Below are positions 5,273 to 15,469 of a stretch of 64,000 nucleotides of DNA, piece by piece. The notes under the pieces are model-generated. The model made no database searches. It was not told the DNA's origin and saw nothing but the letters and a program-made list of their open reading frames with translations. Every line of letters starts with the position of its first letter. The first letter of the stretch is position 1. The DNA lies in assembly GCA_014323545.1 (NCBI GenBank), contig CP058647.1, positions 1,122,001-1,186,000 of the forward strand, given 5' to 3'. The stretch comes from Hyphobacterium sp. CCMP332. GTDB taxonomy: Bacteria > Bacteroidota > Bacteroidia > Cytophagales > CCMP332. The translations under genes were made by a program, and so were the position numbers.

Positions 5273-5827
5273 TTATTTCCATTTGATATTACATCCGGCA
5301 CTTGGAAACTGATCCATTGGCGGAGTCTTGCCATTGAGTAGCTGCTCCAAAGCATTTCTCAAATCTTTGCCATCCACCGGTTTATCATTGCCCGGTCTTG
5401 CTTCATCCAATCTGCCGCGATAAAAGCATTTATCATTAGCATCAAATAAATATAAATCAGGGGTACATGCGGCATAATAAGCTTTGGCCACCTGCTGTGT
5501 TTCATCAAAGAGATAGGGAAATGCAAATCGATGCACTTCAGCAAATTGCTTCATTTTCTCCGGCGAATCTTCAGGGTATTTTTCGATATCATTGGAAGAT
5601 ATCGCGATGGTTTTTATTCCCCTTTTTTCGTACACTTTTGAAATTTTTACCAATTCATTAATCACATGAATAACATAAGGGCAATGATTACAGATAAAAT
5701 ATACAAGTGTACCCTTATCTCCTTTTAAACTTTCAAATGTGTATTTTTTTTGATCCAGGGTATTTATGATTTCAAATTCAGGAGCCCCTGTTTTCAAAGG
5801 CATCATGTTAGAATCGGTAAGTGACAT
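5273..5827 (-). CDS. Thioredoxin-like / redoxin family protein with CNHC motif
   Basis: A 184-residue thioredoxin-fold protein with the motif FICNHCPYV (Cys46, Cys49) and a third cysteine near the C-terminus (Cys179). The CNHCPY pattern is that of a peroxiredoxin-like/thioredoxin-family group common in Bacteroidota and Planctomycetes. Its exact substrate is not established. No signal peptide is apparent, so it is predicted cytoplasmic. A typical cis-Pro region follows (ACTPDLYLFD). The start is ATG 5827. It lies 17 bp downstream of the cytochrome c/copper monooxygenase gene on the same strand, forming a three-gene redox set with the redoxin lipoprotein. Confidence 0.85.
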   Translation of the reverse strand: MSLTDSNMMPLKTGAPEFEIINTLDQKKYTFESLKGDKGTLVYFICNHCPYVIHVINELVKISKVYEKRGIKTIAISSNDIEKYPEDSPEKMKQFAEVHRFAFPYLFDETQQVAKAYYAACTPDLYLFDANDKCFYRGRLDEARPGNDKPVDGKDLRNALEQLLNGKTPPMDQFPSAGCNIKWK

Positions 5828-5844
5828 AAGTAATTATTATTAGT

Positions 5845-7248
5845 TTAAATATTATTTACTTCCAGACTGATATTTTCATCTCCTTCGCGATAAGGTAAAT
5901 AAGTAAATATAAATTGAAACATCTCATCTGTGGTTTTCATGCTATGATCCGGCTCCCTGATTTCTCGTGGAGGAAAAAAGGGATTAAAAGGATTATCCGC
6001 TGTATTGTCGAACAATCCCTCGGCAACTAAGGTAGCCCCAGCCGGAATTTTTATCATTTTAGGAAATTTGTAATAAAACTGCCAGCGAAAATCCCAACTA
6101 TCAATTTTTACTAGCGGAATGGTATCTTTTTTTAATGTTACTGCATAGGCTTTAAACTTTCGACCAAGCAAATGCATGTGGGGATTCACCATAAGAAGTG
6201 AAATATCCTGCGGCACCTGATATTTTGTATAAAAAGTCATTATGGTATCCGGTGGTATGATCAGTTCGGGTTCTACAGGAGATATTCCCAGCGTGCCCAT
6301 TTGCGTTTCATGCGGAATTCTTTCGGGTTTTTTTCTGGAAAAAAAGATATTGATCTTTGATTTATCCCATTGATCCACCGCCGTTGGCCCATAATGCATG
6401 TCCTGCATAAAAAATGCGGCTTTTTTACTGACTTTAAAACCTCCGATCTCCTCCGGATAGGCTACAGGAGAAACACCGGGTAAATAATTGCAAACCAAGG
6501 TGCGTATCTCAGGCATGGTCCCATCATCGTTAAGAAGACCCATCACTTTATAGGCATTGCGTGTTCCCAGCGAGTCGGGAAAAACGATTTTTTCACCTGC
6601 AAAATGATCTGATTTTTTGTGTGAAGTATAATTAATCAGATGGCCATTCATGTGATGAGCCAGTTGTCTGTTGCCCGGCACAAATTCCATTAATCTCACA
6701 AAAGTGTCTTTTTCAAGCTCAAAAGGTATTTTAATAAAAACGAAATGATCCACATTGATGCCTTTTATTAAAAATGAATCCTCCATTTCAATAACGAGAT
6801 CGGGTTCACCCAATTGACTGCCTGTCGGAAATGTTGGTGGTTCGGGAATTGCAGTACTGTCTCCAATTGGCATTCCATTGTCTATCCAGTTGACTAGGGT
6901 TTGAATTTCCTCTTCCTCCAGATATTTCTCACCCAGAAAATGTCTGTAGTTTGGATCAGCAGGCCAGGGTGGCATATAGCGTGTTTCGACTACAAACTGA
7001 ATGGTCTCTGATCTTTTTTTAATATCCTTATAGGTAATCAATGAAAAAGGACCTGCTTCCCCCGGCCTATGACAAGGCATGCAATTATTATAAAAAAAAG
7101 GGGCAATATGTTCGCTGAAAGTTGGGTTTTCAATGACTTGAGCTATTTTTTCAACCTTTTCCTGATCAGCCCCTCTCTTATCTTTTCCAATTTCTGAACA
7201 GGAAAGAAAAAACAAACAGATGATTAGAAAAGAAGGGTAATTTTTCAT
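5845..7248 (-). CDS. Lipoprotein fusing cytochrome c to a PHM-like copper monooxygenase
   Basis: A 467-residue envelope lipoprotein (lipobox LFFLSC, Cys17). A cytochrome c domain follows with heme motif CMPCH (residues 56-60). The rest matches copper type II ascorbate-dependent monooxygenases (peptidylglycine/dopamine monooxygenase fold). All six copper ligands can be placed: the HHM pair (His198, His199), MHYG (His285), HMH (His357, His359) and the Met in TDEMFQF (Met443). This predicts an oxidative enzyme whose electrons may come through the fused heme instead of ascorbate. ATG 7248 is preferred because it overlaps the TGA of the upstream redoxin gene (ATGA) and opens a clean signal peptide. 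ATG 7260 would add four residues. The substrate is unknown. Confidence 0.85.
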   Translation of the reverse strand: MKNYPSFLIICLFFLSCSEIGKDKRGADQEKVEKIAQVIENPTFSEHIAPFFYNNCMPCHRPGEAGPFSLITYKDIKKRSETIQFVVETRYMPPWPADPNYRHFLGEKYLEEEEIQTLVNWIDNGMPIGDSTAIPEPPTFPTGSQLGEPDLVIEMEDSFLIKGINVDHFVFIKIPFELEKDTFVRLMEFVPGNRQLAHHMNGHLINYTSHKKSDHFAGEKIVFPDSLGTRNAYKVMGLLNDDGTMPEIRTLVCNYLPGVSPVAYPEEIGGFKVSKKAAFFMQDMHYGPTAVDQWDKSKINIFFSRKKPERIPHETQMGTLGISPVEPELIIPPDTIMTFYTKYQVPQDISLLMVNPHMHLLGRKFKAYAVTLKKDTIPLVKIDSWDFRWQFYYKFPKMIKIPAGATLVAEGLFDNTADNPFNPFFPPREIREPDHSMKTTDEMFQFIFTYLPYREGDENISLEVNNI

Positions 7249-7802
7249 TGAATAAAGCATCCCACAGCGCTGGTAGATTTAATTTTAATCTCGCGATTCT
7301 CAAGCGTCGCCACAATGGCATCTTCAAGATATCTTTCTGTAATTACGGTTCTTTTTTGGCCTAGTGAAATAGCCCAGTTATCAATAGCTCCGGAATAGCG
7401 CACATTGCCATTCTGATCCAATAAAAAAGCCTCCGGCGTTATTTCTGCACCAAGGGCATTACTTAGCTCAAAGTCAGGATCGAAATAAGTATTAAATTCC
7501 AATCCAAAACGAATTAGGTATTTCCTTACTTGTTCGCTATTGTATTCTTTTCCCGGCACGATGCCAACGAATTCTATCTGAGGAAAATTATTCTTCAATT
7601 CCCTCATGGCTACGGCATAATTTTGACAAAGAGGACATTCAGGGGATAAAAAATAATAAACTCTTACTTTGTTGTTCGCGATGTCCTGCCAGGCTTCTTC
7701 ACCTGAAATAATTGGTAAATCAAGGTCATTCGGAACTTTGTTATATTCCTTGTTGCAGGAAAATACTGCGATCAGCACGCAAATGGATAAAAGCCTATTC
7801 AT
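7245..7802 (-). CDS. Redoxin-domain lipoprotein
   Basis: A 185-residue lipoprotein (signal peptide with lipobox VFSC, Cys16) carrying a thioredoxin/AhpC-TSA fold. The active-site motif is SPECPLCQNY (Cys56, Cys59), with the cis-Pro region TPEAFLLDQNGNVRYSGAID. Such domains reduce disulfides or handle redox cofactors in the periplasm. The gene overlaps the downstream cytochrome c/copper monooxygenase by 4 bp (ATGA), implying translational coupling and a shared task, perhaps copper-site assembly or electron delivery. In some bacteria redoxin, cytochrome c and copper-monooxygenase domains occur in one polypeptide, which supports the link. The start is ATG 7802. Confidence 0.85.
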   Translation of the reverse strand: MNRLLSICVLIAVFSCNKEYNKVPNDLDLPIISGEEAWQDIANNKVRVYYFLSPECPLCQNYAVAMRELKNNFPQIEFVGIVPGKEYNSEQVRKYLIRFGLEFNTYFDPDFELSNALGAEITPEAFLLDQNGNVRYSGAIDNWAISLGQKRTVITERYLEDAIVATLENREIKIKSTSAVGCFIQ

Positions 7803-7843: not shown

Positions 7844-8608
7844 TCAGACAAAATCAGGTTCCTTTTTAAATATTTTCAAAGCTTCATTATAACCCAATTC
7901 TACCAGTTCATCGACTTTCTTAAAATCAAAAATACCATATTTCTGAGCTTCAATAATATTTATGGGGTATCTGCATTTATTCAGTGCGTGTTTTGTGTTT
8001 TGCCATGCTACAATATCAATCGTTCGATCCACCAATTTTGCAAAGGAATCCGGCGTTTTACCGGATCCATCGCCCATGATGTTTACACCAATTATATCAT
8101 ATTCAAAATCCTCAAGGGGTTTAATTGGCAGATTATCTGTCAAGCCTCCGTCAGCGTATAATTCATTTTTGATTTTCACCGGAGAAAAGATCATTGGAAT
8201 AGAACAGGAAGCCACTACGGCATTGTGAATATTTCCATTGTGAATATATTCCACATCGCCAGTTCTTAGATTGGATACCGCGACATAAAATGGCGTTTTA
8301 AGATTTTCAAATTCCTCGACATCGATAAATTTCTTGAAAATCGTAGTTAGGTTCTCCATGCTCACCAAGCCGATTTTTGAAAGCGACATTTTAAAAGCCG
8401 AGTAAAACTTATGCTTTTTGGCGATGTCTGCCATTTCGTGACTTTTAAGCCCGGCAGCAAGCATATAGCCTACTATTGATCCGGCACTGGTTCCGGACAC
8501 CGCCTTCACATTCATTTCAAATTCCTCAATGGCTTTTATGACACCAATATGTGCCAATCCCCTTGCCCCTCCTCCACTCAGGCAAAGCGATACAGATTTT
8601 CCGGTCAT
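7844..8608 (-). CDS. Patatin-like phospholipase
   Basis: A 254-residue serine lipid acyl hydrolase. The glycine-rich oxyanion motif SGGGARGLAHIG sits at the N-terminus, the nucleophile elbow GTSAGS provides Ser41, and Asp153 in ADGG completes the catalytic dyad. The length fits the compact RssA-like bacterial patatins. No signal peptide is visible, so it is probably cytoplasmic or loosely membrane-associated. The start is ATG 8608. The gene lies between the PorP gene and the redox cluster, all on the minus strand with short gaps, but a functional connection is not obvious. Confidence 0.9.
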   Translation of the reverse strand: MTGKSVSLCLSGGGARGLAHIGVIKAIEEFEMNVKAVSGTSAGSIVGYMLAAGLKSHEMADIAKKHKFYSAFKMSLSKIGLVSMENLTTIFKKFIDVEEFENLKTPFYVAVSNLRTGDVEYIHNGNIHNAVVASCSIPMIFSPVKIKNELYADGGLTDNLPIKPLEDFEYDIIGVNIMGDGSGKTPDSFAKLVDRTIDIVAWQNTKHALNKCRYPINIIEAQKYGIFDFKKVDELVELGYNEALKIFKKEPDFV

Positions 8609-8641: not shown

Positions 8642-9664
8642 TTATTTGAGGAAATCAGGGCAACTTAAAGTTTTTTTCTTTGGTTTAACCCTGCTTTTTC
8701 CGGGTGGGAATTGAAATTCATACACTAAGCTGAGCTCATGTGCTCCACCGGTACCGGCTCTGAGCTTAGATACTGTAAGATCATAGCTGTATCCAATTTT
8801 TAAAGTATAAACCCGAAAACCCATAAAGAGCGCGAGTGCATCGTGATTTCCCTCTGTTCGGTCATATCTTTTTAAAGGTAGGCCTCGGTACATCAAACCG
8901 AATGCTGTGTTCTGGTATTGTAAATAGCCTCCAAAATCGAGTTGATCAAATCTTCCCTGGCTCTTGTAATGAAAAACCGGCACCATTTTTACCTGCTGCT
9001 GATTCTTCCACATTCTTCTGGTTAGCGGAATTTCCAATCCACCGTGAATACTAAAATAAGGCGGCACAGTACTGGGCTCTTCTCCGTAGAGCGACTGATC
9101 GGGTTCATTCAGGTTTCTTCCTGTTATTCCAACCCAGAACTTTTTTGAGTAAAGTAATGCGCCTGTGCTAAATGAGAAATAATTGATCCCATTATTTATG
9201 GCATCGTCGCTGGTACTTGAAAAAATCTTTCCCCTTGAGTCCAGCTGATCGCCGAAGGTCAGCTTGGAAAAATCAAAATTCAATGAGTGCAAAGAAAGTT
9301 GTGAACCTACCCTAATTCCCCATTTTCTGGATAAATTCAATTTGTAAGCATAGGCAAAACCCAATTCATTATTGGAAAGACCTGCTGTACCCGCCTTATC
9401 TGTTGAAAAAATAAATGCAGCGCCGCTATTTACGTGCGACAAATTCTTGTCCAATGTAAATGCCGTCGAAACATAATTAGCGGGAATTCCCGGCCATTGA
9501 TTTCTATAGGTACTTTGAAATCTAAAATCTTCGGTGGCCCCGGCAAAAGCCGGATTTAGACTTACAGTTGATGAAAAGAATTGGGTGAATTGAGGATCCT
9601 GTGCCTTAATCTCAAACACTAAAAACAAGCCTATAATTCCTATTGCAATTTTCGCTTTCATCAT
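8642..9664 (-). CDS. PorP/SprF-type outer-membrane protein
   Basis: A 340-residue beta-barrel protein with signal peptide (MMKAKIAIGIIGLFLVF..KAQ) and the family start DPQFTQFFSSTVSLNPAFAGA. PorP/SprF proteins sit in the outer membrane and are usually encoded beside large T9SS cargo proteins, which they help to anchor or export, as SprF does for the gliding adhesin SprB. Here the gene begins 1 bp after the stop codon of the giant PKD protein, so the two form a classic cargo-plus-PorP pair. The terminal KKKTLSCPDFLK tail is unusual for a barrel. The start could be the first or second Met (9664 or 9661). Confidence 0.9.
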   Translation of the reverse strand: MMKAKIAIGIIGLFLVFEIKAQDPQFTQFFSSTVSLNPAFAGATEDFRFQSTYRNQWPGIPANYVSTAFTLDKNLSHVNSGAAFIFSTDKAGTAGLSNNELGFAYAYKLNLSRKWGIRVGSQLSLHSLNFDFSKLTFGDQLDSRGKIFSSTSDDAINNGINYFSFSTGALLYSKKFWVGITGRNLNEPDQSLYGEEPSTVPPYFSIHGGLEIPLTRRMWKNQQQVKMVPVFHYKSQGRFDQLDFGGYLQYQNTAFGLMYRGLPLKRYDRTEGNHDALALFMGFRVYTLKIGYSYDLTVSKLRAGTGGAHELSLVYEFQFPPGKSRVKPKKKTLSCPDFLK

Positions 9665-9665
9665 T

Positions 9666-12600
9666 TTACCTTAATAATGTTACATCCCCAATTTCCACTC
9701 TTTTTTGCCCATCGATAAAATCTAGAGCAATGCGATAGACATACACATCTTGCTTGCACAGTTTTCCACGATAGTAACCATCCCAGCCTATATCCAATCG
9801 CTTGCTCTCAAATATCAATTCCCCCCAGCGGTTAAATATTTGCATGTGCATTCCGGTAGCACCATCGGTGACCGGAAAAAATACATCATTAACTCCTGAA
9901 GAATTTATTTGTCCCCCATTGGAGAAATTGGGATTGGGTGTAAATGCATTTGGGATACTCGCTGCCCCCCCTTCTTTAGCCCTGATGCTGAGAAAAGCGG
10001 TGTCTTTACATTGAAATTCATTTTCTGCTATCAATGAAATAAGATATTCTCCCAATTGATTGTACTCCTTTTCCGGATTTTCTACGATAGAAATGCTTCC
10101 ATCGCCGAAATCCCACAAATAATTGATAGCCCCTTTGGAGTAATTTCTAAAGGCAATGGTTTTTCGAGGAATAAAAATTACAGAATCACCCGGTTTGCTC
10201 AGCGAAAATCTTGCCTCGGGGTTTTCAAAGACCACAGCAATTGAATCGTATTCTACACTTATGGAATCCAATTCATTCATCGCCGTTAATTTTACCTGAT
10301 AGATTCCCGGACTTACATAAGTGTGCACCGGGTTTTCAGCATTGGATTTAATACCATCTCCAAAATCCCATTCGTAGCTTTTTGCATAATCCGAAAAATT
10401 CTGAAAATCAACCTTCAGGGGTGCACAGCCCACACCATAGGCATCAAAATCAGGTATAGGAGCGACGGGTTTGATAAGTACGATTACTTCAGCACTATCA
10501 AAACAGCTTCTGTTTTGGGCAATCATAGTAATCAGGTATTGGCCATGTTCCTGATAGGTATAGTCCACAGGATTTCCCGGGATCTGTGGAGAGCCATCTC
10601 CAAAATTCCAATAAAATTCATTTGCCTTTTGCGATTCCTGAAATAATTGAAAGGTCTTATCGGGAAGGTTTTTAATTGGATTGTCTACAGAAAACTGAGC
10701 AATGGGTTTGACCAATACATTTATGTCACTGTATATGGTATCCGCACAGCCTTCGGAAGATTGCCCAATAAGTCTGGCAGAGAAAATTGAGTCATTATCA
10801 GAATCATTTACAAACACCTGACGACTGAGTACGCCGGCATCGCTGTTTCCATTTTCAAATTCCCAGAAATAGTTGCTCGCATTGCCAAGAGCAGTGAATT
10901 CTATTTCCAATGGACTACAACCTTCAATGGTATCCACCCCAATATTGATATTTGGCTGTGGTAAAATTGTTATTGTTTTTGTAGCAGTATCATTACAGCC
11001 ATAATTGGCAAAAGCTATCAGCTCGACTAAATAGTTTACCGGATTCCCAGTGGTATTGACATAGGTATTGCTCACATTTGAAGCTGACGAAATATTAATA
11101 TTTCCGTCTCCGAAGTCCCATTTATATGAAATTGCTTTGCTTGTATCGGATAGATTAAAAAAATTAATTGTTGCCGGAGTACAAATGGGCGTATTTACCG
11201 TAGTGAAATGTGCATTGGCACTTGGGTAAATGTCTATGGTTTTAACTGTGGTATCCTTGCATTGATAGGTATTGGTACTGATTAAGCGCACATTAAAAGA
11301 TGTATCCAGATTCGTAGTAAATACCTGATTCGTATTTTGCCCGATTCCATTATTGCCATTCCCGAAATTCCACTCATAAAGAATTGCGCCTGATTCCGCA
11401 TTAAAATCTACTGACAGGGGTGAACAGCCGTTCAACGGCGTGCCGACAAAGTCGTAGCTTGTTACAGGATTTACACTAATGGACTGTATAAATGTATCGG
11501 CACACATTCCACCGGGTGAGAGAATTAAGATGGGCAGAAATATTTTTGGCATCGAATCAGTATTGATATAAGTGGTTTGAATTCCGTTGAATTGATTGTT
11601 AATCACCGTACCATTATCCAGATCCCAGATATAATTAAAACTCGAATCAGAGGAACTGTTAAATGAAACATTCAATGGTGTGCAGGCCGGGTTTGGATAA
11701 ACTGTGTTAAAGTTGGCATTGGGCTGTCGAATTACCAGGAGATCAACCGTATCAGAATCTGTACATCCCTGAAAAGACTGTCCTTGCAAAACAATTTGAA
11801 ATATGGAATCCACAGAACTTATATAGCTTGAATTACCGGTGAATCCCGTTCCAAAGGAATTATTGCCAAAATCCCAATTGTATATATCGGCGTTTGATAT
11901 GTTATTATCAACTATAAACTGAGCAAGACTGCCACTGCAAATGCTATCCTGCAGAGCGCTGATGGCCACATCAACCTTCGGATAAACAACAATATTTTTC
12001 AATGCTGTATCCGAGCAACCATTCAATTTACTTGCAATAAGCTCAATGGTAAATGTTTGGTTTTGAGATCCATTGTTGACAAAAATGTGATTGACTATTG
12101 TATCACTGCTGTTTAGGATTGAGGAACCGTCCCCAAAATCCCAGTAAAATTCATCGCCATCGCTTGAGAGGTTTTGAAATGTACTCAATGCCGGACTACA
12201 GCCTGCGGGAATAACAAGCGGCCCTATTTGGGCATTTGCCTGCAATTTTGAGTTCAGCGTATCGTAAACCGTATCCCGGCAATTGAATGATGAGAGACCT
12301 GTTAATCTTATGAGATATGAGGAATCGGCATTTGATAAATAGGTATGGCTTGTATTTTGACCAACAGAATTCGATCCATCTCCAAAATCCCAGGAGTAAG
12401 CACTTGCCACTCCGATGGCGTTAAAAGCAACCATCTGAGGGCCGCAAAAACTATCGGGCGTAAAATTGAAGCTGAGTTTCAATTCGGGTTTTATTAATAC
12501 ATCCTTGACCAGCGTGTCTCTGCAACCGGATGAAGATTCAGCAATTAGCTGAACCGGAAAAACGAGTGTAAATGAAGAATCATTGTTATAAGTATGATTG

Positions 12601-15200
12601 ACCTGATTTCCTGTGCCTTGAGTGCCATCTCCAAAATCCCAGTAAAGGTTTTGAGCATTTACAGAACTGTCGTAAAATTCAACTTGAACCGGCGCGCAAA
12701 CGGATGTATTGACGGATGAATTAAAGTCAGCTTTTGCACCACCCAGAACGGTTAAAGATTTTTGAATTGTATCGCGACAACCGAATGCATTTAAAGTACG
12801 CAAAGTGACATTAAATGCCGTATCAACGGTGCTAGTGTAGGTCATTTGGGTAAATTGTCCAATGCCCGGTTGGCCATTACCAAAATCCCAGTTATAAGAA
12901 ACAGCCCCCGGTTCTGCACTAAAGGTGGCATTAAGCGGAGAACATGATATCGAAGGGCTGAATGTAAAATCAAAGTAGGGGTTCGGACCAATCGAAATGG
13001 TATCCCTATGACTATCTACACAGCCTTTTGAAGAGCTTGCACTTAACAATACAGGGAATTCCAGAATGGTCAGTGAGTCATTGGTAAATAAATGCGATGG
13101 ATTAAAGACATTACTTGTGCTGCCATCACCAAAATCCCAAAAAACGTTGTTTACATTTCCACTCAGTATGGTGTTGAATTGTATCGAATCGGGATTACAA
13201 AGGTCAATCGACGTATGTGTAAATGAAGCCATGACCTCGGGGAATAGGGTAACGTCAATTGCTGATGAATCCTTACAGCCAAAAGTGGTTTCCGCTATCA
13301 GACTAATACTGTATATGCTATCCTGAACAGCATTGTTCTGTAATAAAATGAGAGTATCCTTTGAGCCTGAATAGACAGTATTATCGACGTACCAGAAATA
13401 TTGCAGACTAGGCGTGCCCATGCTATCGCTTTGATTATTCGTAGTAAAAAGATAAGGAGAGCAAGCCTCAATTGAATCCAATGTAAAAATCGACTGTGGG
13501 ACAGGTTCCACGATTATGCTGACCGTATCTATTCCGGTACATTCATTGGTATTGATGGAAAGGACAATATCAAAGGTATCCGCATTTAGGTAAATATGAT
13601 TGGGGTTTTGCAATGCTGAATTGGTGCCATCCCCGAAATCCCAGTTCCAGCTCAATATGGAATCGCCCAGAGAATAAATGCTTTGATCTATAAATTGAGT
13701 ATTTATACCCTGACAAACCGCATTGGGAGAGATATTGACAATTGGCGACATAAAGACATCAACCGTATCGCTGGTTAAATCAATGCATCCTTTGGCTGAT
13801 TGAACCTGAAGGGTTATTTCATAAGATCCTATGCTGTCAAAAAAAATTGTTCCCGGATTCTGAGCATTTGAATTTTGGCCATTTCCAAAATTCCAGTTCC
13901 AAATGCTTACATCAGGACTTGAATTATCCTGAAAATTCACACTTAAAGAGTCACAACCTCTGTCATCACTCAAAAGGAGAGAGGCATCGGGCGCCTTTAA
14001 AACAAAAATATTTTTGGTAAAAACATCCAAACAAGAAGCAGAGCCACCCGCGATACTTGAACTAAGACTTACAGTCTGTAAACCCGAAGTATCATAGCTA
14101 TATGTAGGGTTTGTATTAGTACTAAAATTTCCGTCTCCAAAATTCCATTGAAATGCATTGGCTCCATTGCCCGAAAGGTTTGTAAAATTGATAAGATCGC
14201 CCTGACATACGGTATCCGGTGATGAAAAATTTGCCGATGGCGGACTTGTAATTACGATCTGCATTATTTCGGTGGCTATTCCACACTGATTACTGTCAAG
14301 CAATTGAATGGTATATGTACCCGGTCCCGGAAAAGCTATGGTTCTTGGAATCGAAACCGGAAAAGGTCCCCAGCCAATCACAGAATCCTGACCCGGCCCG
14401 TAGAGGTCAAAAAATGTCCATTGCTCATATCTTTGTTTGGTGTTGCCCAGTGCAGGTGTAGCACAATTTAAATCTGAAACATTTGTAAATGTGACTACCG
14501 TATCCGGATAACAAAGCAACGTTTGCGATGCATTTATAATGGCTGAGTCAATGTCCCATATCTGTATTGGCCTTAAAATATTCTGAGATGGATTTCCCGC
14601 CGTACAGAAATTTTCGGCGGTTAATGTCACTTCGGTTTCGCAATCCACTGTCCCTTTTAAATAAGTATGGGCAAGAGTGTCTCCATGATTTGCAGGACCA
14701 TAAAATTCTATTGGGCTTCCATCGCCCCAATCCCAGGTATAAGTGGTATTTGGTGAGTTATGGACACTCTGGTTTGTAAAAAACAGGGTGGCAGGCGCAC
14801 ATGATTTAGTGACACCGCCAAATCCGGTTTTAACCGAAGCAATCACTGCTTCTTCCATAACCACCAAACCCGATATTGTTCCACAGGCATTGCTGAAGGT
14901 CACATTAAATGTATCTACGGTCGCGGCATATGTATGAGAAATAAATGCAGTACTCAATAATCCATTGCCACTGCTGGAATTACCATCGCCCCAGTCAATG
15001 GTAAAGGCACCGGTGATGTCTCCGGTCATTTGAAAATTGACCGTAAATGGCCCGGATCCACATCCTATCCATACAGGGTTTTGCGATGGTGTGATGACCG
15101 TACCGAAACTCCCAAGGACATCCGGACACTGTGCCATTGATTGGAAAGGCAACAATGAAATTAGACTAATAAATAATATGCACCTAATGCAATTTTTCAT
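9666..15200 (-). CDS. Giant PKD-repeat surface protein with T9SS type B sorting domain
   Basis: About 1,844 residues. A signal peptide (MKNCIRCILFISLISLLP..AQ) is followed by about 18 PKD-like Ig domains, each marked by a W-(D/N)-F-G-(D/N)-G variant, for example WDFGDGTNS, WNFGNGNNG and WDFGDGSIS. The C-terminal about 95 residues are the gliding-motility-associated CHU_C/type B sorting domain (IPNAFTPNPN, IFNRWGELIFES, ending GDVTLLR). It is predicted to be exported by T9SS and displayed as an adhesin, with the PorP/SprF protein encoded next door as partner. I prefer ATG 15200, which opens directly on the signal peptide. ATG 15236 would add 12 residues. Spaced DTxxK and CxP segments recur between domains. 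Confidence 0.9.
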   Translation of the reverse strand: MKNCIRCILFISLISLLPFQSMAQCPDVLGSFGTVITPSQNPVWIGCGSGPFTVNFQMTGDITGAFTIDWGDGNSSSGNGLLSTAFISHTYAATVDTFNVTFSNACGTISGLVVMEEAVIASVKTGFGGVTKSCAPATLFFTNQSVHNSPNTTYTWDWGDGSPIEFYGPANHGDTLAHTYLKGTVDCETEVTLTAENFCTAGNPSQNILRPIQIWDIDSAIINASQTLLCYPDTVVTFTNVSDLNCATPALGNTKQRYEQWTFFDLYGPGQDSVIGWGPFPVSIPRTIAFPGPGTYTIQLLDSNQCGIATEIMQIVITSPPSANFSSPDTVCQGDLINFTNLSGNGANAFQWNFGDGNFSTNTNPTYSYDTSGLQTVSLSSSIAGGSASCLDVFTKNIFVLKAPDASLLLSDDRGCDSLSVNFQDNSSPDVSIWNWNFGNGQNSNAQNPGTIFFDSIGSYEITLQVQSAKGCIDLTSDTVDVFMSPIVNISPNAVCQGINTQFIDQSIYSLGDSILSWNWDFGDGTNSALQNPNHIYLNADTFDIVLSINTNECTGIDTVSIIVEPVPQSIFTLDSIEACSPYLFTTNNQSDSMGTPSLQYFWYVDNTVYSGSKDTLILLQNNAVQDSIYSISLIAETTFGCKDSSAIDVTLFPEVMASFTHTSIDLCNPDSIQFNTILSGNVNNVFWDFGDGSTSNVFNPSHLFTNDSLTILEFPVLLSASSSKGCVDSHRDTISIGPNPYFDFTFSPSISCSPLNATFSAEPGAVSYNWDFGNGQPGIGQFTQMTYTSTVDTAFNVTLRTLNAFGCRDTIQKSLTVLGGAKADFNSSVNTSVCAPVQVEFYDSSVNAQNLYWDFGDGTQGTGNQVNHTYNNDSSFTLVFPVQLIAESSSGCRDTLVKDVLIKPELKLSFNFTPDSFCGPQMVAFNAIGVASAYSWDFGDGSNSVGQNTSHTYLSNADSSYLIRLTGLSSFNCRDTVYDTLNSKLQANAQIGPLVIPAGCSPALSTFQNLSSDGDEFYWDFGDGSSILNSSDTIVNHIFVNNGSQNQTFTIELIASKLNGCSDTALKNIVVYPKVDVAISALQDSICSGSLAQFIVDNNISNADIYNWDFGNNSFGTGFTGNSSYISSVDSIFQIVLQGQSFQGCTDSDTVDLLVIRQPNANFNTVYPNPACTPLNVSFNSSSDSSFNYIWDLDNGTVINNQFNGIQTTYINTDSMPKIFLPILILSPGGMCADTFIQSISVNPVTSYDFVGTPLNGCSPLSVDFNAESGAILYEWNFGNGNNGIGQNTNQVFTTNLDTSFNVRLISTNTYQCKDTTVKTIDIYPSANAHFTTVNTPICTPATINFFNLSDTSKAISYKWDFGDGNINISSASNVSNTYVNTTGNPVNYLVELIAFANYGCNDTATKTITILPQPNINIGVDTIEGCSPLEIEFTALGNASNYFWEFENGNSDAGVLSRQVFVNDSDNDSIFSARLIGQSSEGCADTIYSDINVLVKPIAQFSVDNPIKNLPDKTFQLFQESQKANEFYWNFGDGSPQIPGNPVDYTYQEHGQYLITMIAQNRSCFDSAEVIVLIKPVAPIPDFDAYGVGCAPLKVDFQNFSDYAKSYEWDFGDGIKSNAENPVHTYVSPGIYQVKLTAMNELDSISVEYDSIAVVFENPEARFSLSKPGDSVIFIPRKTIAFRNYSKGAINYLWDFGDGSISIVENPEKEYNQLGEYLISLIAENEFQCKDTAFLSIRAKEGGAASIPNAFTPNPNFSNGGQINSSGVNDVFFPVTDGATGMHMQIFNRWGELIFESKRLDIGWDGYYRGKLCKQDVYVYRIALDFIDGQKRVEIGDVTLLR

Positions 15201-15469
15201 GGTAAGGCTTAATAGAGCGTCTGAAAATTTACGCATCTTTAAGCCCTGTGTTTTGCTTTAAAGGCATATTTGACGAAAATCATTATTCGCCGCTAAGGGT
15301 TTTCAGCCATATTGCATCATGGTTTTCTGCTAAAATTTTAAAAAAATTCTATTTATAGATTTTTATAAATATTTTCTGAAGTCCCAAATTTTGATTCAAT
15401 TTTTAAAAATGAAATGGCAATTCAATGAAATAATTACTGAATAACTGTAATTCATCTTAAGTTTGAATA

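Follow-up and report, generated by a model that had tools for sequence, protein, structure and literature searches.

A predicted bacterial lipoprotein that joins a c-type heme motif to a PHM/DBM-type copper core, and its redoxin partner

Introduction

Animal PHM and DBM enzymes take electrons from ascorbate. An earlier note on the window (the whole stretch of DNA analysed here, 64,000 nucleotides from Hyphobacterium sp. CCMP332) proposed that one of its lipoprotein genes encodes a copper core of this kind fused to a c-type heme, and that an adjacent redoxin lipoprotein may mature the copper site or take part in the electron path. The locus raises the question of whether a bacterial copper monooxygenase could carry its own electron donor, and what the redoxin beside it would do. 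We addressed this question by motif and profile searches, structure prediction, and comparison of homologous loci in bacterial genomes and viral contigs.

Results

The lipoprotein gene and its motifs

The cytochrome c - PHM/DBM-type copper monooxygenase lipoprotein gene, so assigned from its ORF, Pfam, the predicted model and the top fold matches, lies at 5845..7260 on the minus strand and encodes 471 aa as listed. The listed ATG (7258-7260) sits 16 bases within the redoxin gene. A second in-frame ATG (7246-7248), which gives a protein of 467 aa, shares the sequence ATGA (7245..7248, minus strand) with the redoxin stop codon TGA (7245-7247). Position 7248 is the likelier start, because the signal peptide appears to begin there.

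A signal peptide with a lipobox Cys is followed, in this order, by CMPCH (residues 60-64; 7069..7083), MPPW (residues 96-99; 6964..6975), HHM (202-204), MHYG (288-291), HMH (361-363) and DEM (445-447), all on the minus strand. Except for MPPW, these motifs had been claimed in the same order in the earlier note, and all were present. The putative ligands of the CuH site are His202-His203 (6652..6657, minus strand) and His289 (6394..6396, minus strand), and those of the CuM site are both His residues of His361-Met-His363 (6172..6180, minus strand) and Met447 (5920..5922, minus strand). Cys residues were found only at positions 15, 21, 60, 63 and 257, corresponding to the signal, the lipobox, the heme motif and one free Cys. 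The Pfam model PF03712 (Cu2_monoox_C) matched the protein at 25.6 bits, above its cut-off of 23. PF01082, the model for the N-terminal copper domain, was not found in it by Pfam and was weak, under its cut-off, in one homologue (L075). NCBIfam gave no usable name.

Conservation of the copper ligands

All six ligands (H202, H203, H289, H361, H363 and M447), the CxxCH motif and Met96 were kept in 46/46 aligned homologues, as were Pro97 and Pro98 of MPPW; the Met of HHM was present in only 13/46. In alignment A1 (44 proteins), which was used for structure prediction and as a search profile, the six positions were invariant in 44/44, so that no homologue in A1 (0/44) lacked the ligand residues while keeping the rest. 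Alignment A2 contained 33 diverse relatives with 22-61% identity to the window protein, including three copper-only rows without the cytochrome; the six ligands were among its 15 invariant columns (33/33), a count for which A1 is the cleaner figure, as part of A2 was chosen by a CxxCH + HxH pattern. The ligand pattern in these alignments is more than chance. A2 also revealed an invariant motif of the family's own, DN..(N)..N-P (D418 N419, N423, N426 P427), a candidate for part of the substrate pocket.

Predicted fold and its match to PHM and DBH

The AlphaFold2 model built on A1 had a mean pLDDT of 87.5 and a pTM of 0.81, and consisted of a short helical N-terminal domain (helices 48-127) followed by an all-beta region (155-456). 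In a Foldseek search against the PDB, ranks 1-30 were all PHM or DBH (best E 4.2e-13). VIA-align gave Z 17.9 for DBH (281 residues, 3.4 A) and Z 17.8 for PHM (250 residues, 3.0 A), and Z 7.6 for the best unrelated fold. The TM-score of the best Foldseek match was modest (0.40 by query, 0.59 by target), and therefore the domain arrangement may differ from that of PHM/DBH, possibly at the hinge between the two copper domains of the model. DBH is described as occurring in open and closed states (PMC4846438). A BFVD structure search gave no convincing match.

At the sequence level, neither the window protein alone nor the A1 profile matched PHM or DBH at E <= 1 against the PDB sequences; only the broader A2 profile did so, with E 2.1e-12 for DBH (4zel) and 1.7e-5 for PHM (1opm). 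In the A2 alignment, HH, HY and HxH (HTH in both enzymes) were in register with PHM and DBH, and DEM was in register with the DEM of PHM in a second stretch of its own scoring -1.0 bits. The family's ligand columns fall on what we take to be H107/H108, H172, H242/H244 and M314 of PHM (printed chain index plus 44). The ligands of DBH are given as H262, H263, H333, H412, H414 and M487 (PMC4846438). The fold matches, the ligand register and the invariance of the ligands bear out a PHM/DBM-type core with both copper sites, and sequence and model place this bacterial protein in the copper type II (PHM/DBM-type) monooxygenase fold superfamily.

It is highly improbable that the protein is a true peptide-amidating enzyme acting on glycine-extended peptides: its fold and ligands are the same as those of PHM, but R240, N316 and Y318 of PHM, presumably the peptide-binding residues, correspond to Asn359, Gln449 and Ile451 in the A2-profile register, and no lyase (PAL-type) domain was found among the Pfam matches. 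Peptidylglycine hydroxylation as such is not supported, given this loss of the presumed substrate-binding residues. The same loss, together with genomic neighbors that indicate no pathway, would suit a PHM-fold copper protein that is no monooxygenase at all, for instance a redox sensor linked to copper or O2, a protein that stores copper, or an oxidase of quinols or phenols. We consider this unlikely, since both sites, including the weakly binding CuM Met, are invariant over 22-61% identity, which would suit catalysis better than storage.

The heme domain

The fused c-type heme motif proposed in the earlier note was kept in all 46 aligned homologues, as described above, and the Pfam cytochrome c models all scored under their cut-offs on the N-terminal part. 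Met96 is a candidate axial heme ligand; its region is helical in the model, and the fold search barely covered the cytochrome part. The genome encodes Cytochrom_C_asm proteins, and therefore heme c can be made.

In a sister lineage (L020/L092, L058, L066 and L096), lipoproteins with the six-copper-ligand pattern carried an N-terminal CxxxxCH (e.g., CATSGCH) in place of CxxCH. This is perhaps a variant heme attachment motif.

The redoxin lipoprotein

The redoxin (thioredoxin-fold) lipoprotein, of 185 aa, is encoded at 7245..7802 on the minus strand and belongs to a family with CP and a GC end. The Pfam models AhpC-TSA, Redoxin and Thioredoxin_8 matched it over their cut-offs, with AhpC-TSA as the best match. 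Its model had a mean pLDDT of 89.3, and the top seven Foldseek rows were members of the CP...GC-end thioredoxin-like family (2cvb/2ywi/3u5r); 2ywi, 2cvb and 3u5r were also the nearest solved relatives (E 2.7e-21 to 2.4e-18). In alignment A3 (24 redoxin orthologues), Cys56 of CPLC (7635..7637, minus strand) and Cys182 of the C-terminal VGCFI (7257..7259, minus strand) were conserved in 24/24, and the second Cys of CPLC, Cys59 (7626..7628, minus strand), was Cys in 19/24 and Ser in 5/24. A3 was selected by a GCx[IV] pattern, which biases it toward invariance of Cys182; with a profile built without the GC end, 43/43 hits (duplicates and the third gene of the window included) had both CP and the GC end.

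Two known roles were tried for the redoxin and rejected. As an SCO1/SenC copper chaperone, it had no SCO1-SenC Pfam match up to E 1. The genome's own PF02630 (SCO1-type) match lies elsewhere, separate from the redoxin, which leaves the cell with a candidate copper chaperone other than the redoxin. As a ResA/CcmG apocytochrome c thiol reductase, it was rejected on the Ser variants at the second Cys and on DsbE and ResA models that scored far under their cut-offs. A third role, that of a peroxiredoxin-like protector in which Cys56 attacks peroxide and Cys182 resolves, clearing H2O2 formed by uncoupled copper chemistry, would agree with AhpC-TSA as the top Pfam match and with a conserved pair made of Cys56 and the C-terminal Cys rather than of the CxxC. 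However, the redoxin has an invariant TPE loop, presumably typical of thiol oxidoreductases, and its nearest solved proteins are thioredoxin-like and not peroxiredoxins; we therefore regard peroxide protection as a minor prospect.

Coupling of the redoxin to the copper gene

The redoxin was found directly upstream and on the same strand in 29/61 distinct loci by pattern, and in 30/61 when one locus found by profile (L012) was added; the 61 loci are best hits and not a random sample. Four further loci (L014, L017, L084 and L090) had a redoxin nearby in another arrangement. Overlaps or gaps of a few bases between the two genes recurred in homologous loci. In L091 (823-2622, minus strand), a single 599-aa lipoprotein contains the redoxin, then the cytochrome c, then the copper core, with PF03712 at 22.1 bits, just below the cut-off of 23. 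On a tree of 118 rows, redoxin adjacency required at least 8 changes, and therefore it has been repeatedly gained or lost.

Close members of the redoxin subfamily (>100 bits) occurred in 7/16 genomes that carry the copper gene (four of these had been picked for having the redoxin adjacent) and in 0/17 genomes without it, one of which (G029) has a distant copper-core relative. Among 12 genomes without a redoxin beside the best copper gene, 3 had a subfamily member elsewhere (two of them near a second copper gene) and 9 had none >100 bits. These patterns point to the redoxin as a real partner, functionally linked to the copper gene and not essential. The coupling proposed in the earlier note is upheld as a link, by the upstream loci and the L091 fusion, with maturation and electron transfer as candidate roles.

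The same data bear on the possibility that an envelope thiol system, and not the respiratory chain, supplies the electrons, which would reach copper by way of first the redoxin and next the heme. This route would fit the overlapping genes in many loci, the natural fusion of redoxin, cytochrome and copper core in L091, and a thioredoxin fold near ResA/CcmG-type reductases. We nevertheless consider it distinctly unlikely, given that the redoxin lies directly upstream in only about half of the distinct loci, that its second CxxC Cys can be Ser, and that three viral loci (L173-L175) have a redoxin-like domain fused to a cytochrome without any Cys in the redoxin-like part. Because many homologues lack an adjacent redoxin and 9/12 genomes without adjacency lack a close member, the redoxin is not an obligatory electron donor.

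The third gene and other neighbors

The third gene (5273-5827) encodes a CNHC...GCNIKWK thioredoxin-like protein, distantly paralogous to the upstream redoxin, whose core profile it matches at 65 bits. The earlier note had suggested that it may belong to the same unit. When 73 rows were scanned, with about 1.5 kb of flank in most of them, a GCxIKW gene beside the copper gene was found only at the window's own locus (a single place, represented by L001, L065 and L067). On this finding the third gene was rejected as a unit member; the wider thioredoxin-like family to which it belongs also scores 65-97 bits in several genomes that lack the copper gene. The unit consists of the redoxin and the cytochrome-copper protein, without the third gene.

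On the other side of the redoxin gene, a patatin-like gene (7844-8608) adjoins a region (8642-15236) with a PorP/SprF-type gene (Pfam 204 bits) and, in an overlapping range, a repeat protein of 1856 aa. These neighbors look unrelated to the copper–redoxin unit. In two genomes of the same family, a gene of 213 aa overlapped the end of the copper gene (L006:852-1493, minus strand; also L021); that of L006 matched DUF6563.

Spread and forms of the family

Whole-genome searches covered the phylum of the window, and their rates are not comparable with one another, as the genome draws differ in make-up. When the window protein itself was the query, 16/59 relatives gave a match at E 0.001 (14 of them, the own genome included, at <1e-60), and matches were found in 153/295 genomes of the class (150 at <1e-25). 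The A1 profile matched 167/395 genomes of the phylum, most of them only via the cytochrome part and 24 at <1e-80. PF03712 exceeded its cut-off in 18/198 genomes of the phylum and in 0/14 control genomes. A scan of genome contigs yielded 4 loci, all from Bacteroidota, and a plasmid collection held no relatives at E 1e-5. The window gene is one member of a widespread family that is common in its class, and is not singular.

The heme and copper motifs occurred together in 61 distinct bacterial ORFs; 46 of these ended soon after DEM and 15 had a long C-terminal tail. In the two tailed proteins that were scanned, the tail matched Por_Secre_tail, a type IX secretion sorting domain, at 24.9 and 24.5 bits, under the cut-off of 27. 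Family members, whether anchored or exported, seem always to lie outside the cytoplasm.

Relatives on viral contigs

A search of IMG/VR with A1 gave 214 encoding contigs, of which 80 were kept (L097-L176). Two such ORFs were carried by 55/80 of the kept loci (two full cytochrome-copper ORFs in 47 and one full plus one copper-only ORF in 8; e.g., L175:3182-6252, L116:3644-6164 and L143:3584-6152), and the remaining 25 had one. On a tree of a thinned set, each of the two types of paralogue grouped as a single branch with full SH-aLRT support, under long-branch warnings. The loci L173-L175 contain a cassette of a cytochrome-copper gene, then the Cys-less redoxin-like domain fused to a cytochrome, then a copper-only gene.

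Ten neighbors from four viral loci were scanned against PHROGs. Those of L175 matched head scaffolding, major head (6.8e-160), tail tube and UvsY-like proteins; those of L100 had endolysin/virion structural matches, and L173 had a tail lysozyme. The neighbors of L116 were a ribonucleotide reductase and a protease, neither of them phage-specific. At least L175 is a real phage, and the viral origin of the other contigs rests on IMG/VR. The GenBank phage collection gave no relatives at E 1e-5 for two queries, and PHROGs gave no match for five proteins up to E 0.01. In the main text of a study of viral auxiliary genes of the oceans (PMC11360552), the words monooxygenase, cytochrome, copper and peptidylglycine were all absent (0 occurrences).

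Discussion

In this study, a heme motif and six copper-ligand positions in one lipoprotein were traced through a large family of homologues, and a redoxin gene was linked to them. We favor, as the probable reading, an extracytoplasmic O2-dependent copper oxidase/monooxygenase that is fed through its own heme, with the redoxin as a partner in thiol/copper maturation or protection. Sequence and model provide the fold, the positions of the six ligands, the heme motif, the operon and the fusion; from these we infer the copper and heme content, the electron route, monooxygenation and the role of the redoxin.

According to this favored reading, the lipoprotein would be located on the outer side of a membrane, where its N-terminal c-type cytochrome domain would receive single electrons from a respiratory or thiol redox chain and hand them to CuH (His202, His203 and His289). 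At CuM (His361, His363 and Met447), O2 would be bound and used, in the manner proposed for PHM and DBH, to oxidize a C-H bond in a substrate outside the cytoplasm. The invariant fused heme would be a natural donor where the cell has no ascorbate. In DBH, electron transfer takes place at CuH, O2 and the substrate are handled at CuM, and each turnover requires two electrons (PMC4846438). The redoxin lipoprotein would be a dedicated, not universal, accessory to the copper–heme enzyme; through Cys56 and the C-terminal Cys182, it may hold thiols or Cu(I) in the right state during heme/copper loading, or protect the enzyme. Three observations lead us to favor such a thiol/Cu(I) helper: conservation falls on the pair Cys56 and Cys182 and not on the CxxC, many genomes do without the redoxin, and the redoxin gene tends to accompany the copper gene.

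A wider proposal, which we put forward tentatively and hold with rather less confidence than the favored reading, is that these proteins form an ascorbate-independent, self-sufficient class of copper monooxygenases with a covalent c-type heme as donor. This class would occur in Bacteroidota, in lipoprotein and sorting-tail forms, and in marine phages with tandem paralogue pairs, where it may act as a two-subunit oxidase during infection.

The window protein adds a variant to an enzyme fold already known and does not represent a new kind; it is also common. It belongs to a large bacterial family that has seemingly gone unstudied. Among the open-access papers searched we found none on a bacterial or phage-borne cytochrome c - PHM-type protein, a weak indication, as subscription papers and preprints lie outside that scope. 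Public databases presumably label such proteins 'ascorbate-dependent monooxygenase'. The same two copper sites together with a tethered heme donor, in a family so frequent among bacteria, would make electron entry at CuH and the crossing from CuH to CuM testable, would turn the origin of the animal enzymes into a testable question, and would give a chemistry to many unannotated envelope proteins.

Comparison with known systems

In its predicted architecture, the copper core of the window protein follows the animal enzymes that produce peptide hormones and noradrenaline. PHM (1phm, 1opm and 1sdw) has, like the window protein, a two-domain copper core with a three-His CuH site and a two-His-Met CuM site in the same order. 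Unlike PHM, the window protein is a bacterial lipoprotein with an N-terminal cytochrome c domain; it does not have the presumed peptide-binding Arg/Asn/Tyr set, and its Cys content, with one Cys outside the signal/lipobox and heme motif, means that there are no core disulfides. DBH (4zel) was the best match of the window protein both by VIA-align and by profile. Its extra N-terminal domain, a feature shared with the window protein, is described as a DOMON domain (PMC4846438). In the window protein, this part is a CxxCH cytochrome-like domain with no DOMON match in Pfam up to E 1, and the dimerization domain and core disulfides of DBH are absent. Because the presumed peptide-binding residues of PHM, its disulfides and the DOMON domain of DBH are all missing, the protein is neither PHM nor DBH.

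The window redoxin shares CP and the GCxI end with 2cvb/2ywo (Thermus), 2ywi (Geobacillus) and 3u5r (Sinorhizobium), and differs from them in being a lipoprotein, in having CPLC instead of CxxCP, and in its coupling to a copper gene. A distant fold is shared with the copper core by PNGase F and double jelly-roll capsid proteins, which do not have the copper ligands (Z of only about 6-7; PMC8812541).
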